Assembly (NCBI GenBank): GCA_015277795.1 | Contig: CP063848.1 | Span: 4,774,001-4,838,000 of the forward strand | Direction: 5' to 3' | Length of the DNA stretch: 64,000 nucleotides | Source: Massilia sp. UMI-21 | Lineage (GTDB): Bacteria > Pseudomonadota > Gammaproteobacteria > Burkholderiales > Burkholderiaceae_D | Part shown: positions 4,682 through 63,838 of the stretch, piece by piece | Layout: each line of letters opens with the position of its first letter | Numbering within the stretch: the first letter of the stretch is position 1 | Notes under the pieces: model-generated | Seen by the model: only the letters and a program-made list of their open reading frames with translations | Database searches by the model: none | Told to the model about the DNA's origin: nothing | Position numbers and translations under genes: made by a program

Positions 4682-4791
4682 GTAGCGTGGGCGGCTATGC
4701 CGCCCACGCGTTCACATCCCGTCCGAACAGATGCGCACCTTGCTCATCATGCACTGTCTGGACGCGTGGGCGGAAAATCCGCCCACCCTAC
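4682..4791. repeat. REPIN copy A: two inverted GTAG-headed REP hairpins
   Basis: The left hairpin (4682-4710) reads GTAGCGTGGGCGG, TAT-containing loop, CCGCCCACGCG. The right hairpin (4763-4791) is its inverted partner and ends in CCCACCCTAC. The variable stem pair is G-C in both arms. The element starts five bases beyond the stop of the RNB gene and lies before the TonB-family gene. Its layout matches the copies at 10738, 38449, 54436 and 63740. Confidence 0.85.
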
Positions 4792-4795
4792 AATA

Positions 4796-6850
4796 TCAAG
4801 CGGTGCCGGCGTTGGCGGGCACCTCGACACCGTCCTCGGTCGTGACGGCAGCGACGACACCCTCCGCTTCCACGACTTCGGCCAGCGCCGCTTCGCCGCT
4901 ATCGCCGCCCTCGCCCTCTTCTTCGATCTCGATCGAGGCGTCCGGCGCCGCCGCCGCCACCTCGAGCAGGCGCGCTTCGAGCGAGAGGTCGACCTCGTCC
5001 CAGCGCACGATGTCCAGCCTGACCTGGGCGCCGCGCGCCAGTTGCGGCATGCCGGCCAGGCGCGCCACCAGCGGGATCTCGACCAGGCGCACCACTTCGT
5101 CCTTGAGCACCACGGCGTCGACCTGACGGGCCTGCTCCTGGCCCAGCCAGCGCAGGCACCAGTAGCGTTCCATGTTCTGCTGGAAGTCGTTGTAGGCCGC
5201 ATAGGCCGCGTCGAAAGCCGAGACGATCGAGAACAGGGTCGCGTCGCGGTGCTTGAACGGGGCCACCAGCGGCGCGGTCACGCCGTGCGAGGCGCAGGCC
5301 AGGATCTGCCACTGGTTCACCAGGTCGGTATAGCGGCGCAGCGGCGAGGTGCTCCACGCGTACTGGTCCACGCCCAGGCCCTGGTGCGGCGCGGCGTGCG
5401 TCACCATGCGCACCTGGATCTTGGCGTTCCAGCCGCCCGCGCCCGGCCCCTGCGAGCGGTAGATGCCCGGCACGCCCGAGTCGTGCAGCAGCTTGCCCCA
5501 GGTGCTGTTGGCGAAGATCATCAGCTCGGCCACGATCTTGTCGAGCGGCGCGCCGCGCTTGCGGCGCACGATGCTGACCACGTCGTCTTCGACGTAGAAG
5601 TTGAAGTCCACGCGGTTGGCCTGTTCCGGCTTGAGGCCGAAGGCTTCGCGCTTTTTCATGCGGCCCGCTTCCAGCTGCAGCGCCCACTGCCACAGCAGGC
5701 CCAATTCATCCTTGTGGGGATATTCGCCAGCGCCGCTGGCCAGCGTCTCTTCGTTGACCAGGTCGTCGAGGTCGTTGTGGCGCAGGTTGCTTTTGATCGG
5801 CACGCGCTCGGCGCGGGTGGTGGTCGAGACCACGGTCCAGTCCTTCGGGTCGAGCACCGCGTACAGCGACAGCGCCGGGCAGTCCTTGCCTTCGGCCAGG
5901 GTGAAGGCGTCCACGACTTCGTCCGGCAGCATGGTGATCTTATCGCCCGGCATATACACGGTCGACATGCGCGCGCGCGCGATCTTGTCGATCGCGTCGT
6001 CCGGACGGATGCCCAGGCCCGGCGCCGCGATGTGGATGCCCACACGCACGGTGCCATCGTCGAGCCTGGCCACCGAGAAGGCGTCGTCGATCTCGGTGGT
6101 GGTCACGTCGTCGATCGAGAAGGCGGCGACGTCGGCCAGCGGCAGGTCGGCGGGCGCCGTTGGCAGGTCCACCTGGGGAAAGCCGGCGCCGCGCGGGAAG
6201 TGCTCGAACAGGAAGCGCGCCATGTGCAGTTCCTTCGGCGAGGCCAGCCCGCCCGTGCTCAGCATCAGGCGCGGCGCGCTGGTCTGCAGTTCGGAAGCGG
6301 CCGCCTCGAGCGCCTTGTACTCGATGGTGTTCTTTTCCGGCTTGAACAGCAGCTGGTGCACGAGCGCCTGCATGGCCTGCGGCAGCTTGCCCGCCTTGAG
6401 CTCGTCGACGTAGCCGGCCTGCACGATGGCCTGCTGCTTCTTCTTTTCGATGCCGGCCAGCGCCGCCTTCAGGGTCTGCTCGGGCGCGGCCTTGTAGCGC
6501 CCGCGGCCTTTCTTGTGGAAGTAGATCGGCGCCGCGTGCAGCGCCAGCACCAGGCCGGCGGCCTCGAGCGGCAGCGGCGCATGACCGAAGTACTCGAGGC
6601 CGAGTTCCGCAAAGCCGAATTCTTCCTGGCCCGCGACCTCCCACAGGAAGTCCAGGTCCACCTCGGCGGCGATGCCCTTGGCGGCGGCGAGCAGCACTTC
6701 GGGCTCGGGCTGCTCGAACTGGATCAGCACGTCCCTGGACTTGACCTTGGTGCGCTTGCCGCTGGCCAGCTCCACCTGGTAGGCCTCGCCCGCTTGCGAC
6801 AATACGGTGCCGACCTTGAAGTCGCCCGACTCTTCAAAAAAAAGATTCAT
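4796..6850 (-). CDS. RNB-domain 3'-5' exoribonuclease (RNase II-like)
   Basis: A 684-residue member of the RNase II/RNR superfamily, which degrades single-stranded RNA processively. The N-terminal 230 residues appear to form a small beta-barrel followed by a helical region. The RNB domain starts near residue 243, with FSIDDVTTTEIDDAFSV holding the metal-binding aspartates (247/248, 255, 256). HIAAPG, STVYMPGDKITMLP and SPLRRYTDLVNQWQ are further family motifs. The C-terminus after the RNB core ends in an acidic, low-complexity segment (EIEEEGEGGD), and I see no clear S1 domain. It lies directly downstream of ubiC. The specific name (rnb or rnr) cannot be settled by eye. Confidence 0.88.
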   Translation of the reverse strand: MNLFFEESGDFKVGTVLSQAGEAYQVELASGKRTKVKSRDVLIQFEQPEPEVLLAAAKGIAAEVDLDFLWEVAGQEEFGFAELGLEYFGHAPLPLEAAGLVLALHAAPIYFHKKGRGRYKAAPEQTLKAALAGIEKKKQQAIVQAGYVDELKAGKLPQAMQALVHQLLFKPEKNTIEYKALEAAASELQTSAPRLMLSTGGLASPKELHMARFLFEHFPRGAGFPQVDLPTAPADLPLADVAAFSIDDVTTTEIDDAFSVARLDDGTVRVGIHIAAPGLGIRPDDAIDKIARARMSTVYMPGDKITMLPDEVVDAFTLAEGKDCPALSLYAVLDPKDWTVVSTTTRAERVPIKSNLRHNDLDDLVNEETLASGAGEYPHKDELGLLWQWALQLEAGRMKKREAFGLKPEQANRVDFNFYVEDDVVSIVRRKRGAPLDKIVAELMIFANSTWGKLLHDSGVPGIYRSQGPGAGGWNAKIQVRMVTHAAPHQGLGVDQYAWSTSPLRRYTDLVNQWQILACASHGVTAPLVAPFKHRDATLFSIVSAFDAAYAAYNDFQQNMERYWCLRWLGQEQARQVDAVVLKDEVVRLVEIPLVARLAGMPQLARGAQVRLDIVRWDEVDLSLEARLLEVAAAAPDASIEIEEEGEGGDSGEAALAEVVEAEGVVAAVTTEDGVEVPANAGTA

Positions 6851-6851
6851 G

Positions 6852-7481
6852 TTATTTCGTGTTCTGTTGTGTTCCGGCCGGCTTCAGGTCCAGCACCGCC
6901 GGCAAGAATACCTCGGTGACCAGAAGCAGGCCTTGACGGCGGCGGTAGACGCAGCGCCGCGCATAATAAAGTGAGTCGTCGCTTCCGCCCAGGACTGCGC
7001 GCACGCGCCCCATCAGCGGATGGCCCGCGCGGATGCGCGCGTATTCCAGCTGGCCCCGGCGCACCAGCGGGTCGTAGAACAAGGTGGTGCCGAGCGAGCG
7101 TTCGCCCAGCGCCGAAAACAGCGGCCAGTCGCTGGCGGTGCATCCGACCGGCACCACCGTGTGGCCGAACACCCTCGGGATGCCGTCGCATTCGAGCAGC
7201 ACTTCGCGCTCCCACACGCGCCCCGGGCGCGCCAGGCCGATCGCGTGCGCCTCGTCCGCCAGGCAGGTGGCGCCGACCTGGTGCAGCCGGCGCACCCTGA
7301 AGCATTCGCTGTGCGCCATCAGGCGCGCCGTCAGCGAGCCTTCGGTGGTGAGCCAGTCGCGCATCGCGTCCGGCGCGCGCACCGCCCCGGCATGCGGCTG
7401 CCAGGCGGCCTGGCGCAGCGAGGCGCCTCTCATGCCAGGCTTCGTGCCGAGCTTCACGCCGGCCTTCACACCGGCCTTCAC
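6852..7481 (-). CDS. ubiC: Chorismate lyase (chorismate to 4-hydroxybenzoate)
   Basis: Removes pyruvate from chorismate to give 4-hydroxybenzoate, the ring precursor of ubiquinone. Motifs DWLTTEGSLTARL, REVLLECDG, FGHTVVP, LGTTLFYDP and VTEVFLP fit the UbiC fold. Two starts are possible. A GTG at 7481 overlaps the yqiA stop (GTGA) and adds a short Lys/Gly repeat encoded by roughly 12-bp repeats at 7451-7480. An ATG at 7433 gives 193 residues. The shorter form looks closer to the family, but the overlap favours coupled translation from 7481. The next gene, RNB, begins one base after the ubiC stop. Confidence 0.88.
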   Translation of the reverse strand: MKAGVKAGVKLGTKPGMRGASLRQAAWQPHAGAVRAPDAMRDWLTTEGSLTARLMAHSECFRVRRLHQVGATCLADEAHAIGLARPGRVWEREVLLECDGIPRVFGHTVVPVGCTASDWPLFSALGERSLGTTLFYDPLVRRGQLEYARIRAGHPLMGRVRAVLGGSDDSLYYARRCVYRRRQGLLLVTEVFLPAVLDLKPAGTQQNTK

Positions 7482-8077
7482 TGAGCCATGCCTGCGGTCC
7501 GCGTGCAGAAGGCCAGCACCTCGTCTACGTACTGCGGGAATTCCGAGATCGCATGGTCGCTGCCCTCGATCACGTGCTGTCTTGCCCCGGCGTAGTGCGC
7601 CACCATGTCGCGGTAGTCGAGCACTTCGTCGCCGGTTGCCGCGAGCAGGAAATAGCGTTCCGGCCTGGTGATGCGCTCGACCTTGAGCGCCGCCAGTTCG
7701 TCGATGTACTCGCGGCGGAACTCGAAGGGTTCGTCCGAATGCCAGCTGGTCGTCACGCCGACCTGGTGTTCCAGGTTCTTCAGGGGATTCACGGACGGGT
7801 TGAGCAGCACCGCCGGCACGCCCAGGCGCTCGGCCAGCCAGGTGGCGTAGAAGCCGCCCAGCGAGGAACCGATGATGGACAGCTTGTCCGGCGCATGCCG
7901 TTCGGCCAGCAGCAGGGCCAGGGCGATCGCCTCTTTGGGCGAGGCCGGCAGCTGCGGGCAGATCAGTTCGTTCGCCCGGCCCGCGTCGGTCAAGGCCTTC
8001 TGCACCACCCGCGCCTTGAACGACCTGGGCGACGAACGGAATCCGTGGAGGTACAGAACGTAGGCGTTCGCGGTCAT
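7478..8077 (-). CDS. YqiA/YcfP-type alpha/beta-fold esterase
   Basis: A small cytosolic hydrolase of 199 residues with LHGFRSSP at the N-terminus (oxyanion region). The nucleophile elbow IIGSSLGGF has its serine at residue 72. ATGDEVLDY supplies the acid and GSDHAISEF the catalytic histidine near the C-terminus. The closest known relative by motif is E. coli YqiA, which is active on acyl-CoA and short esters; the natural substrate here is unknown. It overlaps mpl by four bases (ATGA) and ubiC by four bases, so it is the middle gene of a tight mpl-yqiA-ubiC cluster. Confidence 0.85.
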   Translation of the reverse strand: MTANAYVLYLHGFRSSPRSFKARVVQKALTDAGRANELICPQLPASPKEAIALALLLAERHAPDKLSIIGSSLGGFYATWLAERLGVPAVLLNPSVNPLKNLEHQVGVTTSWHSDEPFEFRREYIDELAALKVERITRPERYFLLAATGDEVLDYRDMVAHYAGARQHVIEGSDHAISEFPQYVDEVLAFCTRTAGMAQ

Positions 8078-9456
8078 GATGCCAGCGCGTCCAGCAGTTT
8101 CTGGTGCACGCCGCCGAAGCCGCCGTTGCTCATCACGAGGATATGGTCGCCCGGCTGGGCCGCCTGCACGATGGCCTGCACCATGTAGTCGATCTGGTCG
8201 AAGCTGTGCGCGATGGCGCCCAGCGGCCGCAATGCGTCGGCCAGCGACCAGCCCAGCGCCTGCTGGCTGCCGAAGCCGAACACCAGGTCGGCGTCCTTCA
8301 GGCTGCCCGGCAGCGCGTCCTTCATGGCGCCCAGCTTCATGGTGTTCGAGCGCGGTTCGAGCACGGCCAGGATGCGGCCCGAGCTTGCGCCATTATTGCC
8401 GATCTTCTGGCGCAGGCCGCCCACGGTGGTGGCGATCGCGGTCGGGTGGTGCGCGAAGTCGTCGTACACGGTGATGTTGTTGACCGTGCCGCGCACTTCC
8501 ATGCGGCGCTTGACGCTCTGGAAGCGCGACAGCGAAGCGATCGCCTGCGAGGTCGGCACGCCGACGTGGCGCGCGGCCGCGATCGCGGCCAGCGCGTTCA
8601 GGCGGTTGTGGTGGCCGGTCAGCTCCCATTCGACGGTGCCCTGCGAAGCGCCGTCGAACAGGACGTCGAAGCTGCCGCCGCCGGGATGCTCGACCAGGCT
8701 CCAGTTGACGCCCTCGGCCGTACCGAAGCCTTCCTTCTCGCTCCAGCAGCCGCGCTTGAGCACGCGCGCGAGCGCGGCTTCGTCGCCGTTCACGACCAGG
8801 CGGCCCACGCCCGGCACGGTGCGCACCAGGTGGTGGAACTGGGTCTCGATGGCGCCGATGTCCGGGAAGATGTCGGCGTGGTCGTATTCCAGGTTGTTCA
8901 GCACCGCGGTCTTGGCGTGGTAATGGACGAATTTACTGCGCTTGTCGAAAAAGGCGGTGTCGTATTCGTCGGCCTCGATCACGAAGAAATCGCTCGGCTT
9001 GTCGCCATGCAGGCGCGCCGAGATGCCGAAGTTCATCGGCACGCCGCCGATCAGGAAGCCCGGCGCGTAACCCGCGTCTTCCAGGATCCAGGCCAGCATC
9101 GAGGTGGTCGTGGTCTTGCCGTGCGTGCCGGCCACGGCCAGCACCCATTTATCGCGCAGGATGTGCTCGCCGATCCACTGCGGGCCGGAAACATAGGGCA
9201 GCCCGCGGTTCAGGATCTCTTCGATCAGCGGATTGCCGCGCGTCATGACGTTACCGATCACATACAGGTCGGGATTCAGCGACACCTGCTCGGGACCGAA
9301 GCCCTGGATCAGCTCGATGCCCTGGGCTTCCAGCTGGGTGCTCATCGGGGGATAGACGTTGGCGTCGCAACCGGTGACGCGGTGGCCGGCTTCCTTGGCC
9401 AGGACCGCCAGGCCACCCATGAAGGTGCCGCAAATACCGAGAATGTGAATATGCAT
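8074..9456 (-). CDS. mpl: UDP-N-acetylmuramate:L-Ala-gamma-D-Glu-meso-DAP ligase
   Basis: Recycles the tripeptide released from old cell wall by joining it to UDP-MurNAc; cytosolic Mur-ligase family. The 460-residue length is typical. MHIHILGICGTFMGGLA is the N-terminal Rossmann start, AGTHGKTTTTSM (about 109-120) is the ATP loop, and FVIEADEYDTAFFDKRSKF is the family signature after it. It is the first gene of the minus-strand mpl-yqiA-ubiC-RNB run and is divergent from the gene at 9551 across a 94-bp gap. Confidence 0.95.
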   Translation of the reverse strand: MHIHILGICGTFMGGLAVLAKEAGHRVTGCDANVYPPMSTQLEAQGIELIQGFGPEQVSLNPDLYVIGNVMTRGNPLIEEILNRGLPYVSGPQWIGEHILRDKWVLAVAGTHGKTTTTSMLAWILEDAGYAPGFLIGGVPMNFGISARLHGDKPSDFFVIEADEYDTAFFDKRSKFVHYHAKTAVLNNLEYDHADIFPDIGAIETQFHHLVRTVPGVGRLVVNGDEAALARVLKRGCWSEKEGFGTAEGVNWSLVEHPGGGSFDVLFDGASQGTVEWELTGHHNRLNALAAIAAARHVGVPTSQAIASLSRFQSVKRRMEVRGTVNNITVYDDFAHHPTAIATTVGGLRQKIGNNGASSGRILAVLEPRSNTMKLGAMKDALPGSLKDADLVFGFGSQQALGWSLADALRPLGAIAHSFDQIDYMVQAIVQAAQPGDHILVMSNGGFGGVHQKLLDALAS

Positions 9457-9550
9457 GGTCGTGGAAGAAAAAGCCGCAGTAAATGAATTCGAAAGCGCGA
9501 TTCTACCCGACCCGCTGTCATTTTCCTCTTAAGAGTATGATTCGGGCATC

Positions 9551-10180
9551 ATGCCTACTCAGAACAATGACCTACTCCAGCTGCGCGCCGAAATCGCTGC
9601 CTTTGCTGCGCGCATGGTCGCCCAGGATGGCGCCGATTACGATACCGCGCGCCGCAAGGCGGCGCGCCAGGTGCTCGGGGTGGACCGCCCCAGTCCCAAC
9701 CTGATGCCCGACAACCTGCAGATCGAGGACCAGGTCCGTCAATACCAGGCCCTGTTCGGCGGTCCCGGCCAGGCCGAGCGCTTGCGCGCCCTGCGCGAGA
9801 CCGCCCTGCAGGTGATGGACCAGCTGGCCGACTTCCGCCCCTACCTCACCGGCGCCGTGCTCAACGGTACGGCGGGCGAGCACGACGAGATCCACCTGCA
9901 GCTGTTCGCCGACAGCGCCAAGGAGGTCGAGATCTTCCTGCTCAACCGCAACGTCGATATCGAGATCTCCGAAACGCCGCATTTCAAGGGCGGGCGGCAC
10001 GATCCGGTTGAAACGGTCAGCTTCCTGTGGCATAAGGAAACTATTCATGCCGAGTTATACGATTTTCATGATGTGCGCGGGGCCTTGAAACCGCGCGCCG
10101 ATGGCCGCCTGCAGCGGGTCGACGCAGCCGGGCTGCGTGCGCTGATGGCAAACGATGAGACTTTGGAACAGGACGAATGA
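9551..10180 (+). CDS. Conserved protein with nucleotidyltransferase-like core, function unknown
   Basis: A 209-residue soluble protein. The N-terminal half is helical (LRAEIAAFAARMVAQDG) and includes a dimetal-free, Asp/Arg-rich stretch. The central LTGAVLNGTAGEHDEIHLQ, followed by EVEIFLLNRNVDIEI, resembles the G-x-x-D/E strand pattern of nucleotidyltransferase folds. Proteins of this type sit next to mpl in related betaproteobacteria as I recall them, but I know no tested role. Its stop overlaps the next start by four bases (ATGA), so it forms a two-gene unit with the thioredoxin-like protein. Confidence 0.7.
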   Translation: MPTQNNDLLQLRAEIAAFAARMVAQDGADYDTARRKAARQVLGVDRPSPNLMPDNLQIEDQVRQYQALFGGPGQAERLRALRETALQVMDQLADFRPYLTGAVLNGTAGEHDEIHLQLFADSAKEVEIFLLNRNVDIEISETPHFKGGRHDPVETVSFLWHKETIHAELYDFHDVRGALKPRADGRLQRVDAAGLRALMANDETLEQDE

Positions 10181-10731
10181 ATAAGAAACACGTGGCTGCC
10201 TATGCGGCCGTTGCCGCCATGTTCGGCATCATGGGGGCCCTGGTTGCCATCAACAAGAAAGAAGTCCCTCCCTACACCACGGCCATCGCGCCGACCGGCG
10301 GCAAGCCGCACAGCGTCGTCGAGAACCTGTTCGCGCAGTCGCTCAACGACCTGCAGGGAATGCCGCAGCCGCTGTCCAGGTGGCGCGGCAAGCCCTTGCT
10401 GGTGAATTTCTGGGCAACCTGGTGCGCGCCCTGCGTGCAGGAGATGCCGGAGCTGTCCGAACTGGCCGCGCTTGATGCCGGCAAGCACTTCAATGTGATC
10501 GGCATCGGCATCGATTCACCCTCGAACATGCGCGAATTCGCCGCCAAGCTCAAGATCGCCTATCCGCTCTACGTGGCCGGCATGGGCGGCACCGAGCTGT
10601 CGCGCGCCTTCGGCAACAGCGCCGGCGGGCTGCCGTATACGGTATTGATCGGCGCGGACGGCCAGGTGCGCAAGACCTACCTGGGCAAGCTGAAGTTCGA
10701 CGAACTGCGGGCCGACCTGGCCGAACTTTGA
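10177..10731 (+). CDS. TlpA-type thiol:disulfide oxidoreductase
   Basis: A 184-residue protein anchored by an N-terminal hydrophobic segment (VAAYAAVAAMFGIMGALVA, about 5-23). The thioredoxin fold faces the periplasm. NFWATWCAPCVQEMPEL carries the active-site pair C83 and C86, and GLPYTVLIGADG contains the cis-proline. Such proteins reduce periplasmic disulfides, for example in cytochrome c or copper-protein maturation. No ccm genes adjoin it, so its partner is open. It is translationally coupled to the upstream gene by ATGA. Confidence 0.9.
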   Translation: MNKKHVAAYAAVAAMFGIMGALVAINKKEVPPYTTAIAPTGGKPHSVVENLFAQSLNDLQGMPQPLSRWRGKPLLVNFWATWCAPCVQEMPELSELAALDAGKHFNVIGIGIDSPSNMREFAAKLKIAYPLYVAGMGGTELSRAFGNSAGGLPYTVLIGADGQVRKTYLGKLKFDELRADLAEL

Positions 10732-10737
10732 GTTGCC

Positions 10738-10850
10738 GTAGAGTCCCAGGGTGGCCGGCTGCGCCGAGCGCGCGTTCAGCCACCGATAGAACAGCCGTGC
10801 AGGCAGTATCGGCATGATTCGAACGCGTGGCCGGCACCGCCGGCCACCCG
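10738..10850. repeat. REPIN copy B (degenerate)
   Basis: The left arm contains AGGGTGGCCGGC, loop, GCCGAGCGCGCG (about 10748-10774) behind a broken GTAGAGTCCC head. Its variable stem position is a C/A mismatch. The right arm (10821-10850) is intact through GGCCGGC..GCCGGCC but ends in CCCGGC instead of CCCTAC. This is the most decayed of the five copies and lies between the tlpA-like gene and aroQ. Confidence 0.7.
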
Positions 10851-10917
10851 GCGAGCGAACGATCGTTCTTTTCCGAACTGCGCCGAATATGCGTTCAACC
10901 CCCGGTAATTTTACCGC

Positions 10918-10946
10918 TTGCCAATAGTCGAGCTTGGCGGCACAAT
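10918..10946 (+). promoter_or_regulatory. Candidate sigma-70 promoter for aroQ
   Basis: TTGCCA (10918-10923) and CACAAT (10941-10946) are separated by 17 bases and lie 30 bases before the aroQ start. Directly upstream is a small inverted repeat, CGGTAA-tt-TTACCG (10903-10916), that could bind a regulator. Confidence 0.5.
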
Positions 10947-10976
10947 GCCTTCCTTTCGGGCTTCAGACTCTTCAAC

Positions 10977-11414
10977 ATGGCGAAAAAGCTACTGCTGCTT
11001 AACGGCCCCAACCTCAATCTACTGGGGACCCGGGAGCCCGAGGTGTACGGCGCGACGACGCTGGCCGACATCGAACAGGCGGCACTGGCACAGGCTCAGG
11101 CGGCAGGCGCAAGCCTCGACTGCTTCCAGAGCAACCATGAAGGAGCCCTGATCGACCGCATCCACGCCGCGCGCGGCGAAGGCGTGGACGCGATCGTCAT
11201 CAATCCGGGCGGCCTGACCCATACCAGCGTGGCCCTGCGCGATGCGCTTGCTGCGGTGGCAATCCCGTTCGTGGAGGTACACATCTCGAATGTCCATGCC
11301 CGCGAATCCTTCCGGCATCACTCGTACCTGTCGGCTGTCGCGCAAGGCGTGATCTGCGGACTGGGGCCGGACGGATACCGGTTTGCCATCGACTTTGCGC
11401 TTAAATCGCGTTAA
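10977..11414 (+). CDS. aroQ: Type II 3-dehydroquinate dehydratase
   Basis: Dehydrates 3-dehydroquinate to 3-dehydroshikimate in the shikimate route. The dodecameric type II enzyme is about 145 residues, as here. [17 protein letters not shown] contains the catalytic tyrosine at residue 24; [16 protein letters not shown] and [10 protein letters not shown] are the other active-site motifs. I placed the start at the ATG at 10977. The frame is open 50 codons upstream, but that part covers the promoter region and the edge of REPIN B. accB follows 95 bp downstream, an arrangement common in proteobacteria. Confidence 0.95.
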
Positions 11415-11509
11415 TCTACGTCAACTTCATGTATCAGCGGCCGCAGGCTTACCCGGCATCGCGTTGCCAGCTCTCTTAAAAACGAATAAAACATTCCAAG
11501 GGGTTTCAC

Positions 11510-11980
11510 ATGGATCTCAGAAAACTCAAGACTTTGATCGACCTGGTCGCCGAATCGGACATCGCTGAACTCGAAGTGACCGAAGGCGAAAGCAAGGTCC
11601 GCATCGTCAAGTCGTCCGCAAACCCGCAAAACCAGATGATGATGCTGCCGCAGCAGGCCGTGCAGCACTACGCCGCCCCGGCCCAGCAGGGCGCGGTCGC
11701 GGCCCCTGCGGCAGCCCCGGCCGCCGCGCCGGTCGCCGAGCAGACCGGCCACGTGGTCAAGTCGCCGATGGTCGGCACCTTCTACCGCTCTTCGGCCCCG
11801 GGCGCCCCGGCCTTCGTGGAAGTCGGCGCCAACATCAAGCAGGGCGATACCCTGTGCATCATCGAAGCGATGAAGCTCCTGAACGAGATCGATGCCGACG
11901 TCGCCGGCACGGTCACCAAGATTCTCGTGGAAAACGGCCAGCCGGTCGAATTTGGCCAGCCGCTGTTCGTCATCGGCTAA
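11510..11980 (+). CDS. accB: Biotin carboxyl carrier protein of acetyl-CoA carboxylase
   Basis: Carries the biotin that shuttles CO2 between AccC and the carboxyltransferase in fatty acid synthesis. The 156 residues comprise an N-terminal helical domain ([13 protein letters not shown]), an Ala/Pro linker (about 60-76) and the biotinyl domain. [12 protein letters not shown] holds the modified lysine at residue 122. AAGGGG precedes the ATG by a good ribosome-binding distance. accC follows after an unusually long 175-bp gap. Confidence 0.96.
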
Positions 11981-12155
11981 GATCGCCTGACAATCCCCCA
12001 TGGCGGCGTTGCACCGTCTCGCCGTAATGGTGTCTTGTTGGACGATCCGAACCCTCCGGCCGGGCGGCGTCCGCCGCCAGCCCATCCATGTCGTGTCCGG
12101 CGCGCTTTCTGATCCAGACTGTTGCGCCGGTTTTCACTGAAACACCGAACCTACC

Positions 12156-13571
12156 ATGTTTGAAAAAATCCTCATCGCCAACCGTGGTGAAATCGCGCTG
12201 CGTATCCAGCGCGCCTGCCGCGAACTGGGCATCAAGACGGTCGTCGTTCACTCCGAGGCCGACAAGGACGCGAAGTACGTGAAACTGGCGGACGAATCCG
12301 TCTGCATCGGCCCGGCCCAGTCGGCGCTCAGCTACCTGAACATGCCGGCGATTATCAGCGCCGCCGAAGTGACGGACGCCGAGGCGATCCACCCGGGCTA
12401 CGGCTTCCTGTCGGAGAACGCCGACTTCGCCGAACGCGTCGAGAAATCGGGCTTCGTCTTCATCGGCCCGCGCTCGGACTCGATCCGCCTGATGGGCGAC
12501 AAGGTCTCGGCCAAGCAGGCGATGATCAAGGCCGGCGTGCCTTGCGTGCCGGGTTCGGACGGCGCCCTGCCGGACGATCCGAAAGAGATCATCACGACCG
12601 CGCGCAAGATCGGCTACCCGGTCATCATCAAGGCCGCCGGCGGCGGTGGCGGCCGCGGCATGCGCGTGGTGCACACCGAAGCCGCACTGCTGGGCGCCGT
12701 GCAGATGACCAAAACCGAAGCCGGCACCGCCTTCGGCAATCCGGAAGTCTACATGGAGAAGTTCCTGGAAAATCCGCGCCACGTGGAGATCCAGATCCTC
12801 GCCGACGAACACAAGAACGCCGTCTGGCTGGGCGAGCGCGACTGCTCGATGCAGCGCCGCCACCAGAAAGTGATCGAGGAAGCGCCGGCGCCGGGCATCC
12901 CGCGCAAACTCATCGAGAAGATCGGCGACCGCTGCGCCGAAGCCTGCCGCAAGATCGGCTACCGCGGCGCCGGCACCTTCGAATTCCTGTACGAGAACGG
13001 CGAGTTCTACTTCATCGAGATGAACACCCGCGTGCAGGTGGAACACCCGGTCACCGAGATGATCACCGGGATCGACATCGTGCAGGAACAGATCCGCATC
13101 GCCTGCGGCGAGAAGCTGCGCTTCAAGCAGCGCGACATCATGCTGTCGGGCCATTCGATCGAGTGCCGCATCAATGCCGAAGACCCGTTCAAGTTCACGC
13201 CTTCCCCGGGCCGCATCACCGGCTGGCATCCGCCGGGCGGTCCTGGCATCCGTGTCGATTCGCACTCGTATGCAGGATATTATGTTCCACCTCATTACGA
13301 CTCGATGATCGGCAAGGTAATTTCTTACGGTGCGACGCGCGAGCAGGCAATTCGCCGCATGCAAATCGCGCTCTCGGAAATGGTGGTCGAAGGTATTCTC
13401 ACCAATATCCCGCTGCACCGTGAGCTGATGGTCGACGCCCGCTTCATCGAGGGCGGCACCAACATCCACTACCTGGAGCACAAGCTGGCCTCGAAGCCGG
13501 ACCTGCCGAAGGAAGGTGGCCTCGGCGCCAAATCGGAAACCAAGGTAGCGGACGTGAAGGCTGATCTATGA
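12156..13571 (+). CDS. accC: Biotin carboxylase subunit of acetyl-CoA carboxylase
   Basis: ATP-dependent carboxylation of biotin on AccB. The ATP-grasp protein starts [16 protein letters not shown], contains the glycine-rich ATP loop [14 protein letters not shown], and has the metal and substrate motifs [15 protein letters not shown] and ECRINAED. At 471 residues it is about 20 longer than E. coli AccC because of a charged tail ([13 protein letters not shown]). Its end overlaps prmA by four bases (ATGA). I see no strong ribosome binding site directly before the ATG. Between accB and accC lies a 6-bp GC hairpin (12063-12078). Confidence 0.96.
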
Positions 13572-14524
13572 GCTGGACCGAAGTCGTCATCGAAGTAGCC
13601 CGCGATCACGCGGAAGCCCTGTCGGACGCCCTGATGGAAGCGGGCGCCCTGTCGGTTTCCGTGGAAGACGCGGACGAAGGCACGGAGCTCGAGAAACCGC
13701 TGTTCGGCGAGCCGGGCATGGAGCCCACCGAGGCTGCCTGGGACCACTCGCGCGTGGTCGCGCTCACCGATACCGACGCCGACCAGTTCGCGATCGTGCA
13801 GGAAGCCGCCAACGCCATCAAGCTGCCCGTGCTGCCTTCGTTCACCACCCGCGCGGTGGCGGACGCCGACTGGGTGCGCCTGACCCAGTCGCAGTTCGAG
13901 CCGATCCACATCGGCAAGAACATCTGGGTCGTGCCGAGCTGGCACGAAGCGCCGGACCCGAACGGGCTCATCCTCGAGCTCGATCCCGGCCTGGCCTTCG
14001 GCACCGGCAGCCACCCGACCACCCGCCTGTGCATGGAATGGCTGGAAGCGCACCCCGCGCCCGGCAAGTCGGTGCTGGACTACGGCTGCGGTTCGGGCAT
14101 CCTGGCGATGGTCGCCAAGAAGCTCGGCGCGCAAGACGTCGCCGGGGTCGACATCGACCCGCAGGCGATCGAATCGGCGCGCAGCAACGCCGAACGCAAC
14201 AAGGTCAGCATCGACTACTACCTGCCGGACGACTTCGCGGCCGCGCCGAACACGCGCCATGCGCAGGGCCAGTTCGACATCGTGGTGGCCAACATCCTGT
14301 CGAGCCCATTGAAGCTGATGGCGCCGATGCTGTCCGGCCGCGTGGCGCCGGGCGGCAGCCTGATCCTGTCGGGCGTGCTGGCACGCCAGGCCGAGGAAGT
14401 GGCCGCCGCCTACGCACCTTTCATCAAGCTGGGCGTCTGGGCCGAGCAGGACGGCTGGGTCGCCCTTCACGGGACGCTCGGCCAGGACACCGCCCCCGCG
14501 CCGCGCTCCGCCACCGCCGCTTAA
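13568..14524 (+). CDS. prmA: Ribosomal protein L11 methyltransferase
   Basis: Trimethylates L11 using S-adenosylmethionine. The 318-residue protein has an N-terminal substrate-recognition domain and a class I methyltransferase domain. [12 protein letters not shown] (about 170-181) is SAM motif I, followed by [15 protein letters not shown] and [10 protein letters not shown]. It is coupled to accC by a four-base overlap, a neighbourhood also seen in other gamma- and betaproteobacteria. Confidence 0.94.
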
Positions 14525-14537
14525 GGGAAACCCAGGC

Positions 14538-15959: not shown

Positions 15960-15996
15960 CGCCTCGCCCCATTCTTTCCATTCCCGAGAGCCCCCC

Positions 15997-38448: not shown

Positions 38449-38557
38449 GTAGGGTGGCCGGCTATGCCGGCCGCGCGTTCAACCCGTATGTAAATGGATG
38501 CAGCGCGTTTGAGCGCCGGTAAGTTGAACGCGCGGACGGCGAAGCCGTCCACCCTAC
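38449..38557. repeat. REPIN copy C: paired inverted REP hairpins
   Basis: The left arm starts GTAGGGTGGCCGGC (38449) with variable stem pair C-G. The right arm (38526-38557) ends GTCCACCCTAC with variable pair A-T. The element fills the space between the SWIB terminator and the convergent phosphatase stop, four bases away. Confidence 0.9.
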
Positions 38558-51747: not shown

Positions 51748-51757
51748 TGGCTGGTCC

Positions 51758-52105: not shown

Positions 52106-52285
52106 GGGTGTGGCTCGTTAGTTGTAATTCGAATACCGCAAACGCACAAAAAGTTAGCAAACGGACTACCAACCTGTCGATTCTATCTGAAGAGTTGTCA
52201 CCAGTCTACAAACGCACGCGGCCGTCCAGGCCGGTCCGGGACGCGGTTCTGACTTATACTCGCCTTCATTTCACTCTCCTCCAGA

Positions 52286-53158
52286 ATGACCATGCCCGCG
52301 CCCATGCAAGCTTCCCCCCGCTTCGAAGGCAGCGACAAGTACGTCGCCACCGCCGACCTGAAACTGGCCGTCAACGCCGCCTTGAGGCTCGGCCGCCCGC
52401 TGCTGATCAAGGGCGAGCCGGGCACCGGCAAGACCATGCTGGCCGAAGAAGTGGCCGCCGCACTCGACATGCCGCTGCTGCAATGGCACGTGAAGTCGAC
52501 CACCAAGGCCCAGCAGGGCCTGTACGAGTACGACGCCGTGTCGCGCCTGCGCGACTCGCAACTGGGCGACGAGCGGGTGCGCGACATCCACAACTATATC
52601 GTCAAAGGCGTGCTGTGGCAGGCTTTCACGGCGCCGGAACCGGTCGTGCTCCTGATCGACGAGATCGACAAGGCCGACATCGAGTTTCCGAACGACCTGT
52701 TGCGCGAACTGGACCGCATGGAGTTCTACGTCTACGAGACCCGCGAGATGGTGGTCGCCAGGCACCGCCCGCTGGTGATCATCACCTCCAACAACGAGAA
52801 GGAACTGCCGGACGCCTTCCTGCGCCGCTGCTTCTTCCATTACATCAAATTCCCGGACCGGGAAACCATGGCCGACATCGTCAAGGTCCACTTCCCGACC
52901 CTGAAGCAGGACCTGCTGGCCGCCGCGCTGCAGAGCTTCTACGAGCTGCGCGAGGTGGCCGGCATCAAGAAGAAGCCCTCGACCTCGGAATTCCTCGACT
53001 GGCTCAAGCTGTTGCTGGCCGAGGACATCCCGGCCGAAGCCCTGCGCAGCCAGGCACGCGGCGCCATCGTGCCGCCGCTGCACGGCGCCCTGCTCAAGAA
53101 CGAGCAGGACGTGCACCTGTTCGAACGCCTGATCGCCATGTCGAGGATGAACCGATGA
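52286..53158 (+). CDS. MoxR-family AAA+ ATPase
   Basis: A 290-residue chaperone-like ATPase. LLIKGEPGTGKTMLAEEVA is Walker A, VLLIDEIDKADIEFPNDLL Walker B, ITSNNEKELPDAFLRRC the sensor 1/arginine-finger region. MoxR proteins work with VWA proteins to insert metals or assemble enzyme complexes. The next gene is exactly such a VWA protein, so the two are a functional pair; the client enzyme is not in view. Confidence 0.92.
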   Translation: MTMPAPMQASPRFEGSDKYVATADLKLAVNAALRLGRPLLIKGEPGTGKTMLAEEVAAALDMPLLQWHVKSTTKAQQGLYEYDAVSRLRDSQLGDERVRDIHNYIVKGVLWQAFTAPEPVVLLIDEIDKADIEFPNDLLRELDRMEFYVYETREMVVARHRPLVIITSNNEKELPDAFLRRCFFHYIKFPDRETMADIVKVHFPTLKQDLLAAALQSFYELREVAGIKKKPSTSEFLDWLKLLLAEDIPAEALRSQARGAIVPPLHGALLKNEQDVHLFERLIAMSRMNR

Positions 53159-53203
53159 TCCAGGCGATCCGGGTGCGGCTGGAGCGCCACGCAAGGAACT
53201 AGC

Positions 53204-54373: not shown

Positions 54374-54435
54374 GCCGGCGCGCAGGTCAATCGTGCGCGT
54401 TGGTCCGTCTTGTAGAATTAGCAAAACGACTACAT

Positions 54436-54536
54436 GTAGGGTGGTCGGCTTCGCCGACCGCGCGTCCAGCTCGCGGACGCGCTGTAGCGACGCATCCTTT
54501 GCTTGAACGCGCGGACGGCACAGCCGTCCACCCTAC
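54436..54536. repeat. REPIN copy D upstream of the antiporter gene
   Basis: The left arm starts GTAGGGTGGTCGGC (54436) with variable pair T-A; the right arm (54505-54536) has variable pair A-T and ends CCACCCTAC. It occupies most of the gap between the VWA stop and the antiporter ATG. The antiporter ribosome binding site (GAGAGGAA) follows directly. Confidence 0.9.
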
Positions 54537-54548
54537 GAGAGGAACCCG

Positions 54549-55751
54549 ATGCCCGACCTGCTGCCCATCCTGACCAGCCTCGCGTGGCCGATCGCGCTCG
54601 CCATCGCCTGGCTGGCCGGCGAATTCGGCCAGCGCTGGACCGGCCTGCCGCGCATCAGTTTCTATGGCGTGGTCGGCTTCGTGCTGGCCGGGCCGCAGCT
54701 CGGCGTGCTGCCGGCGCCGGACGCCGGTCCGGTGGCGCTGCTGGCCGACGTCGCCTTCGGCCTGATCCTGTTCGAACTGGGCTACCGCATCAACCTGCGC
54801 TGGCTGCGCCACAACCCCTGGATCGGCGTGGCCGGACTGGCGGAAAGCCTGCTCACCTTCGTGCTGGTCTACCTGGTCGCCCTCGCCTTCGGCACGTCGC
54901 AGCTGATCGCCCTGATGATGGCCGCGCTCTCGATGGGCACCTCGCCGGCCACCATCGTGCGCGTCATCAACGAACAGCGCAGCTCGGGCCAGGTCACCGA
55001 GCGCGTGCTGCACCTCACGGCGCAGAACTGCGTGCTCGCGGTATTCGCCTTCAACGCCATCGTCGGGTTCTGGATCTTCCACACCTTCGATGCGGTGGGC
55101 GAAGCCCTGTGGCAGAGCCTCGTGATGCTGCTTGGGTCGGCGCTGGTCGGCGCGCTGTTCGGGGTATCGGTCCCGGCCCTGCTGCGCGCCATTCGCAACC
55201 CGCGCCAGGACGCCACCGTGGCCTTCGCGCTGGCCATCGTGCTGCTGGTGGCGCTGTGCGACGCCGGCACGCTGTCGCCCTATATCGCAGCGCTGTTCTT
55301 CGGCCTGACGGCGCGTCACCGCCGCATCGCGTTCAGCCAGGCGCAGCGCAACTTCGGCACACTGGGCGAGGTACTGACCGTGCTGCTGTTCCTGTACGCC
55401 GCCTCGACGCTCGACTGGCGCCAGGTGGCCGGCGGCAGCGCGCTCGCCATCGTCGTGGTGCTGGTGCGTCAGCTGGCCAAGACCGCCGGCGTCACCGCCT
55501 TCGCCCACTTGTCCGGCGTCTCGTGGCGCAAGGGCGCGCTCACCGGCCTGGGCCTGGCGCCGCTGTCGGTGTTCGTGATCCTGCTGATCGAGCATGCGCG
55601 CCACGCGGGCGTGCACGTGGTCGAGGAACTGCGCGCGATGGCCGCGGTGACCATGCTGCTCGAAGTGTTCGGTCCCGTCATCATCCAGCGCGCCCTGGTC
55701 TGGGCGCGCGAATCGTCCACCGACGTCGCGGAGCAGACCCATGCCGCTTGA
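54549..55751 (+). CDS. Cation:proton antiporter (CPA2/KefB-like membrane domain)
   Basis: A 400-residue membrane protein with about 12 helices and no C-terminal TrkA-N domain. [18 protein letters not shown] and [17 protein letters not shown] match the N-terminal CPA2 region; [20 protein letters not shown] and [17 protein letters not shown] follow. It presumably exchanges Na+ or K+ for H+. Its last 11 bases overlap the YbdK start, so the two proteins are co-translated. Confidence 0.87.
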
Positions 55752-56877
55752 CGCCTTCACCTCCTCGCAGCCGCTCACGTTCGGTGTCGAACTGGAACTG
55801 CAGCTGGTCAGCCTGTCGGACTTCGACCTGACCGCGGCCAGCCCCGACCTGATGCACCTGCTCAAGCGCAAGCCCTTCCCCGGCAACGTGACCCCGGAGA
55901 TCACCGAGAGCATGATCGAGATTAACTCGAGCGTGCACTCGTCGTATGGACCGCTGCTGGCGGAGCTGCGCGAGATCCGCGACACCCTGGTGGCGGCCAG
56001 CGACATGCTCAACATCGGCATCGCCGGCGGCGGCACCCATCCGTTCCAGCATTGGTCGGAACAGAAGATATCGAGCAAGCCGCGCTACGAATACCTGTCG
56101 CAGCTGTACGGCTACCTGGCCAAGCAGTTCACGGTGTTCGGCCAGCACGTGCACATCGGCTGCGCCAACGGCGACGATGCGCTCTACCTGCTGCACGCGC
56201 TGAACCGCTACCTGCCGCATTTCATCGCGCTATCAAGCTCCTCGCCCTTCGTGCAGGGCATTGATTCCGGCTTCGATTCGGCGCGCCTGAATTCGGTGTT
56301 CGCCTTCCCGATGAGCGGCCGCGCACCCTTCGTCCTGAACTGGCAGGAGTTCACCGACGTGTACTTCGCCAAGATGGAGCGCACCAACATCATCAAGAGC
56401 ATGAAGGATTTTTACTGGGACCTGCGACCCAAGCCCGAGTACGGCACCATCGAGCTGCGCGTGTGCGACACGCCGCTCACGGTGGAGCGCGCGGCGGCCC
56501 TGGCGGCCTACCTGCAGGCGCTGTGCCGCCACCTGCTCACCCGCGTCGATGCGCCGCCCGTCGAAGACGACTATCTGGTCTACAACTACAACCGCTTCCA
56601 GGCCTGCCGCTTCGGCCTGGAAGGCGCGCTCACGCACCCGAAGACCTACGCCAGCGTGCCGATGCGCGAAGACATCCTGGCCACGCTCGAGCAGATGATG
56701 CCGCATGCCGAGGCGCTGGGCAGCGTGGAAGCGCTGCAGCACCTGGCGGAGGCGGCGCGCGGCGGCAGCGATGCGGCCGCGCTGCGGCGGGTGTTTGCGC
56801 GCGACGGCAGCGTCGAGGGCATGGTCGACGCCGCCATCCGGCACTTCCGCGGCGACCGCCGCACGGGTCTCCGCTAG
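55741..56877 (+). CDS. YbdK-type carboxylate-amine ligase (glutamate-cysteine ligase 2 family)
   Basis: A 378-residue member of the GCS2 family. [54 protein letters not shown] and [16 protein letters not shown] are its conserved segments. E. coli YbdK has weak glutamate-cysteine ligase activity, but the usual substrate is unknown. It overlaps the antiporter gene and faces a gamma-glutamyl hydrolase-like gene, which suggests a gamma-glutamyl compound as product and substrate; this is inference. Confidence 0.88.
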
Positions 56878-56995
56878 CGTCTTCAGCCGTGCGCCGCGCG
56901 CGCGTCTGGCGGCGCCTGCGCGCGTTCGTGCATGCCGTAGTCGCGCAGCCCCTGCCTCGACTGGAGCGAACGGCGCCACCACCTTAGCGCGCGCC

Positions 56996-57997
56996 CTACA
57001 GCCTGGTTTCGCGCGCGGCGCGCAGGAACTCGTCGAGGACCGGTGTGCAGTCGAGCAGCTCGGTGCCGCCGGCCCGGTGGAATTCCGGATGCCATTGCAG
57101 GCCCATGACGAAGTCGGCGCGCTCGTAGCGGATCGCTTCGACGATGCCGTCGGGATCGGAATAGGCTTCGACGCGGATATTGCGCCCCAACTGCTTGACC
57201 GCCTGGTGGTGGATCGAGTTGACGATCGGCCGGTCGAGGTGGCCGAACATCTTGCCGAGCGAGGAACCCGGCGGGAAGCGCACCGCGTGCCGGTGCGCGT
57301 CGTACAGGTCGTGCACGTGCGCCATTGCCTCGGGCACATTGGTGGCGACGTCCTGGAACAGCGTGCCGCCGAAGGCGACGTTGATCAGCTGGCAGCCGCG
57401 GCATACGCCCAGCACCGGCTTGCCGGCATCGACGAATTCGTGCAGCAGTTCGAGCTCGTAGACGTCGCGCGCCCGGTCGCCATTCCACTCGGGCCGGGTC
57501 GGCACTTCGGAATAGGTCTGCGGCGCCACGTCCGCCCCGCCCTGCAACACCAGCCCGTCGAGGTGGCGCGCGTAGTGGCGCAGGGTGATGTTACTAGGGT
57601 GGAATAGTCCGTTTGTGTTTACGGTAGGAATCATGAACACCAGCACGTCGCGCGACATCACCCACTGGGCAATCGATTCTTCGAGATACTGGAGATTCTT
57701 GCTGAGCAAGCCCTTGGCGCCCGGCTCGGGGTGGAAGATGCGCGCCGATACCCCGATATGCAGGGTGCGATTCATGAAATCGCGGCCGAAACGGTCGCGC
57801 AGTGCACGCCAGCGCGAGCTCAGCACCCGACCGGCCAGCGCCAGCGGCGTGTCGCCGTCGCGTTGGTACTTGGCATGACCGCGCATGGTCTGACCCTGGG
57901 TCGCGCGCCGGTCCGGCACCCGCGTCGGGGTCTCAGCAAGCTTATCAACCGGCGGACCGGGCATTTCTTCGGATGGTATAGGTTCGCATTCCGCCAT
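56996..57997 (-). CDS. Class I glutamine amidotransferase, gamma-glutamyl-GABA hydrolase (PuuD)-like
   Basis: A 333-residue protein from the ATG at 57997; an ATG at 57886, with AGGG seven bases upstream, gives 296 residues and is a good alternative. The catalytic domain starts at MNRTLHIGVSARIF. LDGLVLQGGADVAPQ is the oxyanion strand, GVCRGCQLINVAFGG holds the nucleophile cysteine, and MGLQWHPEFH the histidine and glutamate. Relatives hydrolyse gamma-glutamyl amides. It is convergent with ybdK. Confidence 0.87.
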   Translation of the reverse strand: MAECEPIPSEEMPGPPVDKLAETPTRVPDRRATQGQTMRGHAKYQRDGDTPLALAGRVLSSRWRALRDRFGRDFMNRTLHIGVSARIFHPEPGAKGLLSKNLQYLEESIAQWVMSRDVLVFMIPTVNTNGLFHPSNITLRHYARHLDGLVLQGGADVAPQTYSEVPTRPEWNGDRARDVYELELLHEFVDAGKPVLGVCRGCQLINVAFGGTLFQDVATNVPEAMAHVHDLYDAHRHAVRFPPGSSLGKMFGHLDRPIVNSIHHQAVKQLGRNIRVEAYSDPDGIVEAIRYERADFVMGLQWHPEFHRAGGTELLDCTPVLDEFLRAARETRL

Positions 57998-58138
57998 AGG
58001 TATCAATATAGCCCTTGACACGGCCGCGCACGATTTAAAGTTGTTACAAAAAACCACGGAGGGCAGCGCATCCGCGCAACAGGCCCAGCTTGCGCGATTT
58101 TCATTTTCGGTTAATACTGTATGCAATTACAGTGGTTT

Positions 58139-59020
58139 TCACCCCGGCAGCGACAGCAGTTTCTGGAAGGTGGTCAGCAGATGACGGTCCGCGATCGGCT
58201 TGTCGAGCAGTCCACGCACGCCCGCATCGCGGGCGCGCAGGCTGTCGTACTTGAACGATTGCCCAACAAGAAGCAGCACGGCGGTACGACCTGCCCCTTC
58301 CTGTGACTTGATGGCGCTGCTCAGGCTGTAAGGTTCGATGCCGGGCGCGCAAGTGTTGATCATGACCAGCGACACCGGGGTCTCGTCGCACAGGCGCACC
58401 GCGGCGCGGCTGCTGTCGGTCCATTCGACCGGCCGGCTGGCCGAGCCCGGCGTCGCCGGCGTCGCACCGGGTGGATTGCCGAGGGTGTTGCCGATAGTAT
58501 TGGCAAAGACGCGCGCCACATGGTCGCGGAAGGCGCCGCCCTTGTCGATGATGAGCACGGCGCCGTCGGGCGGTCCATGGCGCAGGCGGGCATAATAGGC
58601 CGGCGCCTCGGTATCGGGCGCCAGCCTCGGCCTTCGTCGGCGCTCGGGCAGGCAACGCTGGCCGCGGGCTGCCAGGGTCGCCAGTGTCTGCACGCGGCTG
58701 TCGAGCAGTTCCGCCAAGACCTCGTACAGGCTGGCAGGGTCGACGGGACGCGGCAAGCTGCGGCGGCTGCTGGCGCCATCGCCGCCGATCAGCAGGATGG
58801 GTTGCGGCGCGCCGGGCGGCAGGCAAGACAGCCGCGCCAGCGCCGCCGGATTGCCGCCGTCGGCGATATACAGGTCCGGTTCTTGCAAACTGTCGTCGTG
58901 CAGGCAAAAATACGACGGCCCCGGCGACGGGGCTTGCGCCAGCAGACGCTCCAGCTGGGCGCATTCAGCCGGCGCGAACCCGACCAGGCGGAGGGTGAAT
59001 GGATATCTGGGTGCGTGCAT
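58139..59020 (-). CDS. Response-regulator-like protein with two receiver-type folds
   Basis: A 293-residue protein from the ATG at 59020. The C-terminal 120 residues look like a receiver domain (GAVLIIDKGGAFRDHVARV, SLVMINTCAPGIEP, AVLLLVGQSFKYDSLRARDA, GLLDKPIADRHLL). However, the usual phospho-acceptor aspartate position reads asparagine (MINTCA). The N-terminal half resembles a second degenerate receiver (RLVGFAPAECAQLERLL, DLYIADGG). No output domain is visible, so it may act as a protein-protein adaptor. Confidence 0.6.
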   Translation of the reverse strand: MHAPRYPFTLRLVGFAPAECAQLERLLAQAPSPGPSYFCLHDDSLQEPDLYIADGGNPAALARLSCLPPGAPQPILLIGGDGASSRRSLPRPVDPASLYEVLAELLDSRVQTLATLAARGQRCLPERRRRPRLAPDTEAPAYYARLRHGPPDGAVLIIDKGGAFRDHVARVFANTIGNTLGNPPGATPATPGSASRPVEWTDSSRAAVRLCDETPVSLVMINTCAPGIEPYSLSSAIKSQEGAGRTAVLLLVGQSFKYDSLRARDAGVRGLLDKPIADRHLLTTFQKLLSLPG

Positions 59021-59326
59021 CGCTTTTCCAGCCTTTCCTTGGGGCAGCTCAAAAAAACCTGCTGCGCTTGCACCGGCGGTAGAGGGGCACATGGCCCTGC
59101 GATGCGCGCCGTACGGCTGGTACAGCTGCGCTTCTCGACCACCATTGCCGCCGCTCGCGACGGTTTTTCGATTTGCCCTTGGCATCTTCCGGGCCACATC
59201 GTTTTAATCTAGCACAAGGGTGCAGACTAACAAGCACGTTTGGCATCTCGCTTGTCACGTAAAAAGGCCAAATTTTTCCGCCTGACAAGATAGAATGCGC
59301 AAGCATTGAACACCACACACATCAGC
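59021..59326. other. 306-bp divergent promoter region before parE
   Basis: No coding frame is convincing. TAGAAT (59291-59296) is a candidate -10 for parE, 31 bases before its ATG, without a clear -35. The stretch around 59250-59285 is AT-rich. On the other side GGAAAAG precedes the receiver-like gene. Confidence 0.5.
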
Positions 59327-61324
<1,998 letters not shown>

Positions 61325-61358
61325 CCTCGCCCCGTGCGCTGAACAGAACGACACGATC

Positions 61359-63686
<2,328 letters not shown>

Positions 63687-63705
63687 ACAAGCTGATTACG
63701 TCACC

Positions 63706-63737
63706 AAGAACGCCGGCTCGACGCCGGCGTTCTTTAT
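63706..63737 (+). terminator. Terminator of parEC
   Basis: A perfect 12-bp stem (63706-63717 with 63723-63734) followed by TATT only. The T-run is short, but the stem is strong and lies 20 bases after the parC stop. Confidence 0.75.
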
Positions 63738-63739
63738 TC

Positions 63740-63838
63740 GTAGGGTGGCCGGCTTTGCCGGCCGCGCGTTCGACCAGAAGATGCGCGCCACAATGCATCC
63801 GGCCTTGAACGCGCGGTCGACCGAGCCGACCATCCTAC
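63740..63838. repeat. REPIN copy E between parC and the terminal gene
   Basis: The left arm starts GTAGGGTGGCCGGC (63740), variable pair C-G. The right arm (63807-63838) has variable pair T-A, one further G-T wobble, and ends CATCCTAC. The copy is flanked by two terminators. Confidence 0.88.

Follow-up and report, generated by a model that had tools for sequence, protein, structure and literature searches.

RESULTS

Paired hairpins in the window and across the chromosome

The stretch analysed here, referred to as the window, comprises 64,000 nucleotides of the Massilia sp. UMI-21 chromosome (positions 4774001-4838000 on a single contig of 5,302,561 bases) and carries five dispersed elements, each built from two short hairpins in inverted orientation. 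Judged from the named relatives of its RAYT enzyme (see below), the host is a Massilia-like betaproteobacterium, neither a pseudomonad nor a Stenotrophomonas. The elements are very probably REP doublets forming hairpins (REPINs), that is, head-to-head pairs of repetitive extragenic palindromic (REP) hairpins that are non-autonomous and would be spread by a REP-associated tyrosine transposase (RAYT, or TnpA-REP) encoded elsewhere on the chromosome. The sequences support this reading in five ways: the elements are numerous, they follow a paired plan in which certain lengths are favoured, the same hairpin also frames a RAYT gene, RAYT and hairpin vary in parallel across the genus, and orthologous sites are occupied in some genomes and empty in others. 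From these we infer that the RAYT replicates the repeats and that the elements move.

All five elements proposed in an initial annotation of the window were recovered by a search for the arm sequence. With up to 2 mismatches, this search produced 13 matches in the window, compared with a mean of 2.6 and a maximum of 8 in 100 shuffles, and 10 of the 13 are the arms of the five elements. The elements are 99-110 bp long and share a plan of two short, outward-facing hairpins of the form GTAGGGTGGxCGGC-Tnn-GCCGx'CC-R-CGCGTTCAA, in inverted orientation (Table 1). The annotated coordinates were correct for four copies, while the ends given for copy 2 (10738-10850) were slightly off. The annotated arm head, GTAGGGTGGxCGGC, is exact in 5 of the ten arms and carries 1 mismatch in 3, but both arms of copy 2 have 2 mismatches and have lost GTAG; a GTAG does occur at 10738 but is outside the arm by 8 bp. 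Copy 2 also has a degenerate left arm, in which x = C is opposite A. In the nine intact arms the two bases at x always pair, as annotated, and G-C, C-G, A-T, and T-A pairs all occur. In the right arm of copy 1, the loop is closed by A-T rather than C-G. When folded as single DNA strands, all five copies were more stable than every one of 200 shuffles (z, -4.2 to -8.9). One search pattern, GTAGNGGTGGNCGGC, was dropped, as it was one base too long and missed the arms.

Table 1. REPIN copies (window coordinates) and the REP-linked RAYT gene (contig coordinates)
Feature	Position	Length	Arms (strand)	x pair	Remarks
REPIN copy 1	4682..4791	110 bp	4682-4715 (+), 4758-4791 (-)	G-C in both arms	
REPIN copy 2	10746..10852	107 bp	10746-10779 (+), 10819-10852 (-)		Decayed
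REPIN copy 3	38449..38557	109 bp	38449-38482 (+), 38524-38557 (-)	C-G (+), A-T (-)	
REPIN copy 4	54436..54536	101 bp	54436-54469 (+), 54503-54536 (-)	T-A (+), A-T (-)	
REPIN copy 5	63740..63838	99 bp	63740-63773 (+), 63805-63838 (-)	C-G (+), T-A (-)	One G.T wobble in (-) arm
RAYT gene L032 (= L204)	4448104-4448634				~325 kb from window; NF047646, 195.3 bits (cut-off, 80)

The initial annotation had read the elements as REP sequences mobilised by a RAYT and had proposed a genome-wide count and a search for a RAYT gene flanked by the same hairpin; both results support that reading. Across the genome, the arm head GTAGGGTGGNCGGC occurs 284 times with at most one mismatch (141 forward and 143 reverse), compared with 15 times (8 and 7) for the reversed control. 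Exact head-to-head doublets of two arms occur 22 times, compared with none for the control. A strand bias at 1.2-3.0 Mb is not claimed, as exact minus-strand arms occur in that region and were omitted from the place list.

The RAYT gene and its counterparts in related genomes

Three Y1 transposase genes are present in the genome and all lie outside the window, in keeping with the annotation, which had seen no RAYT gene there. One of them is a RAYT gene (Table 1) located between two outward-facing arms: one starts 88 bp before the predicted start of the gene, and the other, in inverted orientation, follows shortly after the gene (strands + and -). The catalytic motifs of the encoded protein are intact, with HLH at residue 59 and DYIHFNP containing Tyr130. 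Its only PDB match at an E value of ≤0.001 is Escherichia coli TnpA-REP (4er8; E = 5.6e-47; residues 3-169), and its best named relatives, the first five of the matches listed, are from Massilia. The ~1.5 kb searched on each side of the other two Y1 genes contained no arm within 2 mismatches.

A second RAYT-type gene (L033, G000:C1:334549-334995; 137 bits) is 39% identical to the REP-linked RAYT and has no REP beside it. Genes similar to it are found in 56 of 62 same-genus genomes.

We also counted the head pattern over these 62 same-genus genomes (own genome included) and obtained 8313 matches, compared with 948 for the control. Related RAYT genes scoring at least 130 bits number 60 and are distributed over 39 of the 62 genomes; 30 of them, one per genome and including our own, were examined as loci. 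An outward GTAG hairpin lies within 200 bp of the RAYT gene at all 30 loci and on both sides at 22 (L210 ends at a contig end). Among 23 loci from nine genomes that contain RAYT-like genes of other types, none is flanked on both sides and a single one on one side, by a hairpin that by eye is a terminator. Random placements in 60 loci gave 0 of 300 for both sides and 28 of 300 for one side, a rate that is inflated because these loci were fetched beside our own REPINs. RAYT identity and arm similarity, compared over 29 of the 30 loci, are correlated (Mantel r, 0.49; reached by 0 of 5000 permutations). If a genome counts as REP-rich when its head count is at least 3 times the control, then 34 of the 39 genomes that carry this RAYT type qualify, versus 9 of the 23 that lack it (Fisher P, 1.4e-4, not corrected for kinship). 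In a family sample from outside the genus (110 genomes in 43 genera) there was almost no excess of the head, the exceptions being G104 (12+9 versus 1+3) and possibly G155 (12+8 versus 8+4).

Compensatory change within arms

For the analysis of arm structure, 125 arms were assembled from the window and from 76 stretches fetched around places listed by the genome patterns. Arms were picked without reference to the rest of the stem, from matches to the two outer ends (GTAGGGT and CGCGTYC, allowing 1 mismatch in each). In every stretch, the patterns used for fetching prescribed positions 1-9 and 11-14 in one or more arms, which inflates the conservation of positions 1-14; x and x' were left free, and x is therefore unbiased by the choice of arms. 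Arms whose head had decayed by more than one base, including both arms of copy 2, were left out, and pair counts refer to the 114 arms with a 3-base loop (11 of the 125 have other loops).

The complementarity at x reported for the window holds in this larger set. The x pair (positions 10/22) is a standard pair in 111 of 114 arms, compared with 46.6 (standard deviation [SD], 5.0; maximum, 62 in 2000) when partners are shuffled, and is distributed over TA (48 arms), AT (27), GC (26), CG (8), and GT (2). Just five arms are non-Watson-Crick at x, four of them of wobble type (two G.T and two A.C). The loop-closing pair (14/18) is likewise standard in 108 of 114 arms, versus 82.5 (SD, 2.8) expected, with G-C replacing C-G in 14. 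Pairs 8/24 and 11/21 are nearly invariant and hence uninformative, and pair 7/25 is T.G in 94 arms and T-A in 19. An x of G is linked to A at position 25 (17 of 29 arms, versus 2 of 85 others), marking a subfamily. Outside the stem, 109 of 114 arms have T as the first base of the loop, and each of the four GTAG positions is conserved to at least 98%, GTAGGGT (at most 1 mismatch) having been the selection anchor. For group 3 RAYTs, single loop bases are reported to be decisive for two enzymes, and a stem mismatch impaired cleavage by one (PMC8266576); by analogy, these data fit the conserved loop T and the paired stem seen here, without being proof.

Head-to-head doublets hold 92 of the 125 arms; within 150 bp there are otherwise one other inverted arrangement and two same-strand neighbours. 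The lengths of the 46 doublets peak at 101 bp (13 doublets) and at 107-109 bp (22). One doublet, at 3842139 (119 bp), has a left arm that lacks the stem and is probably false. The doublets at 3442158 and 4271703 have identical 10-base flanks on both sides and probably represent one duplicated segment, counted twice among the 46.

A doublet can fold in two ways: each arm can close on itself as a small hairpin, or one arm can pair with the other in a long single hairpin, the REPIN hairpin proper, from which the small hairpins would merely follow. The lowest-energy DNA fold is the long hairpin for copies 3, 4, and 5 (38449, 54436, and 63740) and largely so for copy 2; for copy 1 it is two small hairpins. 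Compensatory changes across the long hairpin are also stated for the REPINs of Pseudomonas fluorescens SBW25 (PMC3116915). Nevertheless, preservation of the long hairpin as the unit appears highly improbable from the doublets themselves. Within arms, x is Watson-Crick in 88 of 92 cases, whereas it is alike between the two arms in 20 of 46 doublets (chance, 14.0; P = 0.04) and, within the main subfamily (G25), in 12 of 35 (chance, 12.9). The slight agreement overall is in line with the linked subfamily (x = G with A25). Arm-to-arm agreement also exceeds chance at positions 25, 45, and 48, of which position 25 marks that same subfamily, but not at the variable inner positions 31-39. Because arm-to-arm co-variation at x is slight, the small hairpin of each arm seems to be the fold that is preserved, with a pairing constraint that would act mainly per arm.

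A preference for hetero-doublets was tested and rejected, as x instead agrees slightly above chance in the comparison just given. Loop sequences are alike between the arms of a doublet in only 2 of 46 cases (mean, 6.3; P = 0.027), perhaps reflecting a founder doublet with unlike loops.

Site occupancy and insertion context

We compared two of the window sites with orthologous sites in related genomes. Upstream of the Na/H antiporter gene (copy 4), a GTAG- or GCAG-headed hairpin is present in 7 of 30 orthologues, and downstream of the alkaline phosphatase gene (copy 3) in 11 of 30, our own genome being included in both counts and one hairpin of the latter (L297) probably not being a REP. These counts are approximate, as the flanks of L301 and L311 were truncated (to 42 and 295 bp) and L265 contains a decayed doublet that is visible in the alignment but escaped the count. 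In an alignment of the antiporter site from 12 close genomes, eight have arms, either full or decayed, that belong to different subfamilies (with CGCGTTCAA or CGCGGTGAT tails, for example), the site is empty in G003, G025, and G053, and G047 is ambiguous. Such differences in occupancy would be expected of elements that are mobile or replaceable.

All five window copies are intergenic, as annotated, judged from open reading frames (ORFs) whose proteins match Pfam. Copy 1 has a TonB-like gene on one side and an RNB nuclease gene on the other, and lies 4 bp past the stop codon of the nuclease gene. Copy 2 is flanked by a thioredoxin-like gene and a dehydroquinase gene; the listed dehydroquinase ORF begins at GTG 10827, within the right arm; as its domain does not start before residue 54, the true start is probably further in. 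Copy 3 lies 4 bp past the stop codon of the alkaline phosphatase gene, which is convergent with a SWIB gene. Copy 4 is located between CoxE-like and Na/H antiporter genes and ends 12 bp ahead of the listed start of the antiporter. Copy 5 lies 53 bp past the gene for gyrase/topoisomerase IV subunit A, the one neighbour checked. In the window at 63710-63868, GC-rich hairpins beside T- or A-runs (ACGCCGGC...GCCGGCGT) flank copy 5 on both sides and look terminator-like by eye.

A run of four Ts is present within the 20 nucleotides (nt) before GTAG in 20 of 123 arms, compared with 18 of 738 background windows, and terminator-like hairpins occur within 60 nt of GTAG in 6 of 123 arms, compared with 0 of 615. 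The background windows lie 60-360 nt further out and may be coding, and the enrichment may in part simply reflect the composition of intergenic DNA. The elements might also insert, or be tolerated, beside terminators. Another explanation, which we consider quite improbable, is that the hairpins persist chiefly for a role in RNA (as terminators, stabilisers of mRNA 3' ends, or attenuators) and that their spread is incidental. The enrichment just described would suit such a role, as would the intergenic position of 5 of 5 window copies, two of them 4 bp past a stop codon. However, an RNA role leaves unexplained the shared parts that lie outside the stem (GTAG and CGCGTTCAA), the fixed doublet plan, and the hairpins flanking the RAYT gene at 30 of 30 loci. 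Wobble-type intermediates at x, found in just 4 of 114 arms, are also scarce, and no Rfam family matched in the window at the gathering score.

Observations that weigh against the proposed RAYT-driven spread

Several results count against the interpretation of the elements as REPINs spread by the RAYT. Nine REP-rich genomes lack this RAYT type at an E value of 1e-20 (G005, G012, G025, G027, G036, G039, G040, G042, and G055); in these, NF047646 matches only the other RAYT-like genes, at no more than 152 bits, and none of the 23 loci with such genes adjoins a REP. Conversely, five of the 39 genomes that carry the RAYT do not qualify as REP-rich when judged by this head. In two of the five, G020 and G024, the arm beside the RAYT gene has a different stem, and the head pattern may therefore overlook their repeats. 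The correlation between RAYT identity and arm similarity could stem from shared descent alone, the HxH match is missing in one of 29 RAYTs tested (L209), and the arm upstream of our own RAYT gene has a broken x pair (G opposite G). Identical arm pairs are found in 0 of 46 doublets (shuffle mean, 1.1), and very recent copies are thus not evident. Finally, breakpoints at the empty sites are inexact because the flanks have diverged, and neither a target duplication nor an excision footprint was seen.

The REP-rich genomes without this RAYT type and the lack of identical arms within doublets could also be explained by an old REP population that has been passively inherited since its mobiliser became extinct, with the flanked RAYT as a bystander. 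We regard this scenario as improbable, since RAYT and arm types vary in parallel, the catalytic motifs of our own RAYT are intact, 22 exact doublets are present in its genome, and species differ both in occupancy and in the arm subfamily found at the same site.

Five of the genomes without a cognate RAYT that we could find, G025, G012, G027, G036, and G055, contain 101 to 219 head matches (G055 is 83% complete) and are possible orphan REP populations.

Related elements in the same genome

Relatives of the REPINs of ~170 bp are located at 311102-311271, 782562-782730, 927557-927728, 3722430-3722607, 3882577-3882745, and 3882787-3882955. By eye, they keep the GGGCGGC/GCCGCCC stem fully or partly and have loops of ~35 bases, several starting with TCCACC. 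This long-loop element is also found in a tandem array (L118, 4599708-4600830) with a 187-bp period and several near-identical copies. In the right arms at 349750, 505070, and 3928598, each paired with an ordinary arm, the loop is itself a hairpin (GGTAATTnnGGCC...GGCCnnAATTAC).

DISCUSSION

If the five window elements are REPINs mobilised by the RAYT, their spread could proceed as follows. Replication would expose one strand, on which each arm would fold as a small hairpin (GTAGGG T GGxCGGC-Tnn-GCCGx'CC R CGCG). The RAYT would recognise the arm by its GTAG head, its stem shape, and the T of its loop; the HUH/Tyr site of the enzyme would nick near GTAG, and the enzyme would carry the doublet to a new intergenic site. 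The middle pair x would drift as a pair because the stem would be needed mainly as a duplex. More tentatively, the RAYT may read an arm as a shape composed of a GTAGGGT head, a duplex with a free middle pair, a loop T, and a CGCGT foot, with the single arm, and not the long hairpin of the doublet, as the unit under pairing constraint. Half-changed intermediates might then be rare owing to templated repair of one arm half by the other (strand switching in the hairpin) rather than to slow selection on two separate mutations. We consider this combined reading possible but doubtful.

These results add a RAYT-linked REPIN system that is spread through one genus of Betaproteobacteria. A freely varying x pair makes it possible to separate two rival folds within one chromosome, with the small arm hairpin favoured, and a small-hairpin substrate would make the target of the enzyme directly testable. 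Repeat-rich genomes in which no cognate RAYT was found would serve as natural tests of repeat persistence without the enzyme. Our search for literature pairing the words RAYT and Massilia found none (TnpA-REP with Massilia was not searched), and a search for Massilia with "repetitive extragenic palindromic" found, judged by title, nothing on genomic Massilia REPs. A 2010 survey described RAYTs with abundant REPs only in gammaproteobacteria, except for one acquired by Thauera (PMC2817692).

The Massilia elements share with the REPINs of P. fluorescens SBW25 (Bertels and Rainey 2011, PMC3116915) dispersed inverted REP doublets, preferred distances, a variable spacer, intergenic position, a linked RAYT, and some tandem clusters. 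They differ in having the head GTAGGGTGG and the CGCGTTCAA tail, and in co-variation that lies within arms with little between them, whereas the SBW25 account reports compensatory changes across the long hairpin qualitatively. With the GTAG-tagged REP families (Di Nocera et al. 2013, PMC3733652), they have in common the GTAG tag, a short stem, a 2-3 base loop, sub-families with complementary stems, head-head dimers, hetero-dimers, and a flanked RAYT. The main text of that paper does not name Massilia, Janthinobacterium, or Herbaspirillum, and its 24 families were compared here by description. Haemophilus REPs (GTAGGGTGGGCTTnAGCCCACC; Nunvar et al. 2010, Table 1, PMC2817692) share the first ten bases, GTAGGGTGGG, a short palindrome, and a cognate RAYT, but the Massilia arm has a CGGC-Tnn-GCCG stem and a conserved CGCGTTCAA tail and comes from another class of proteobacteria.

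At the level of the enzyme, an HUH motif combined with a catalytic Tyr is common to the Massilia RAYT, E. coli TnpA-REP (PDB 4er8), and the group 2 and 3 RAYTs, and GTAG is reported to be required for cleavage in published RAYT systems (PMC8266576). The Massilia RAYT aligns with that of E. coli (group 2) nearly to the C terminus, whereas its REP, a near-perfect palindrome with a loop T, resembles those of group 3 as described in that work. The kind of element is already known; what is new is the lineage and the separation of the two folds.

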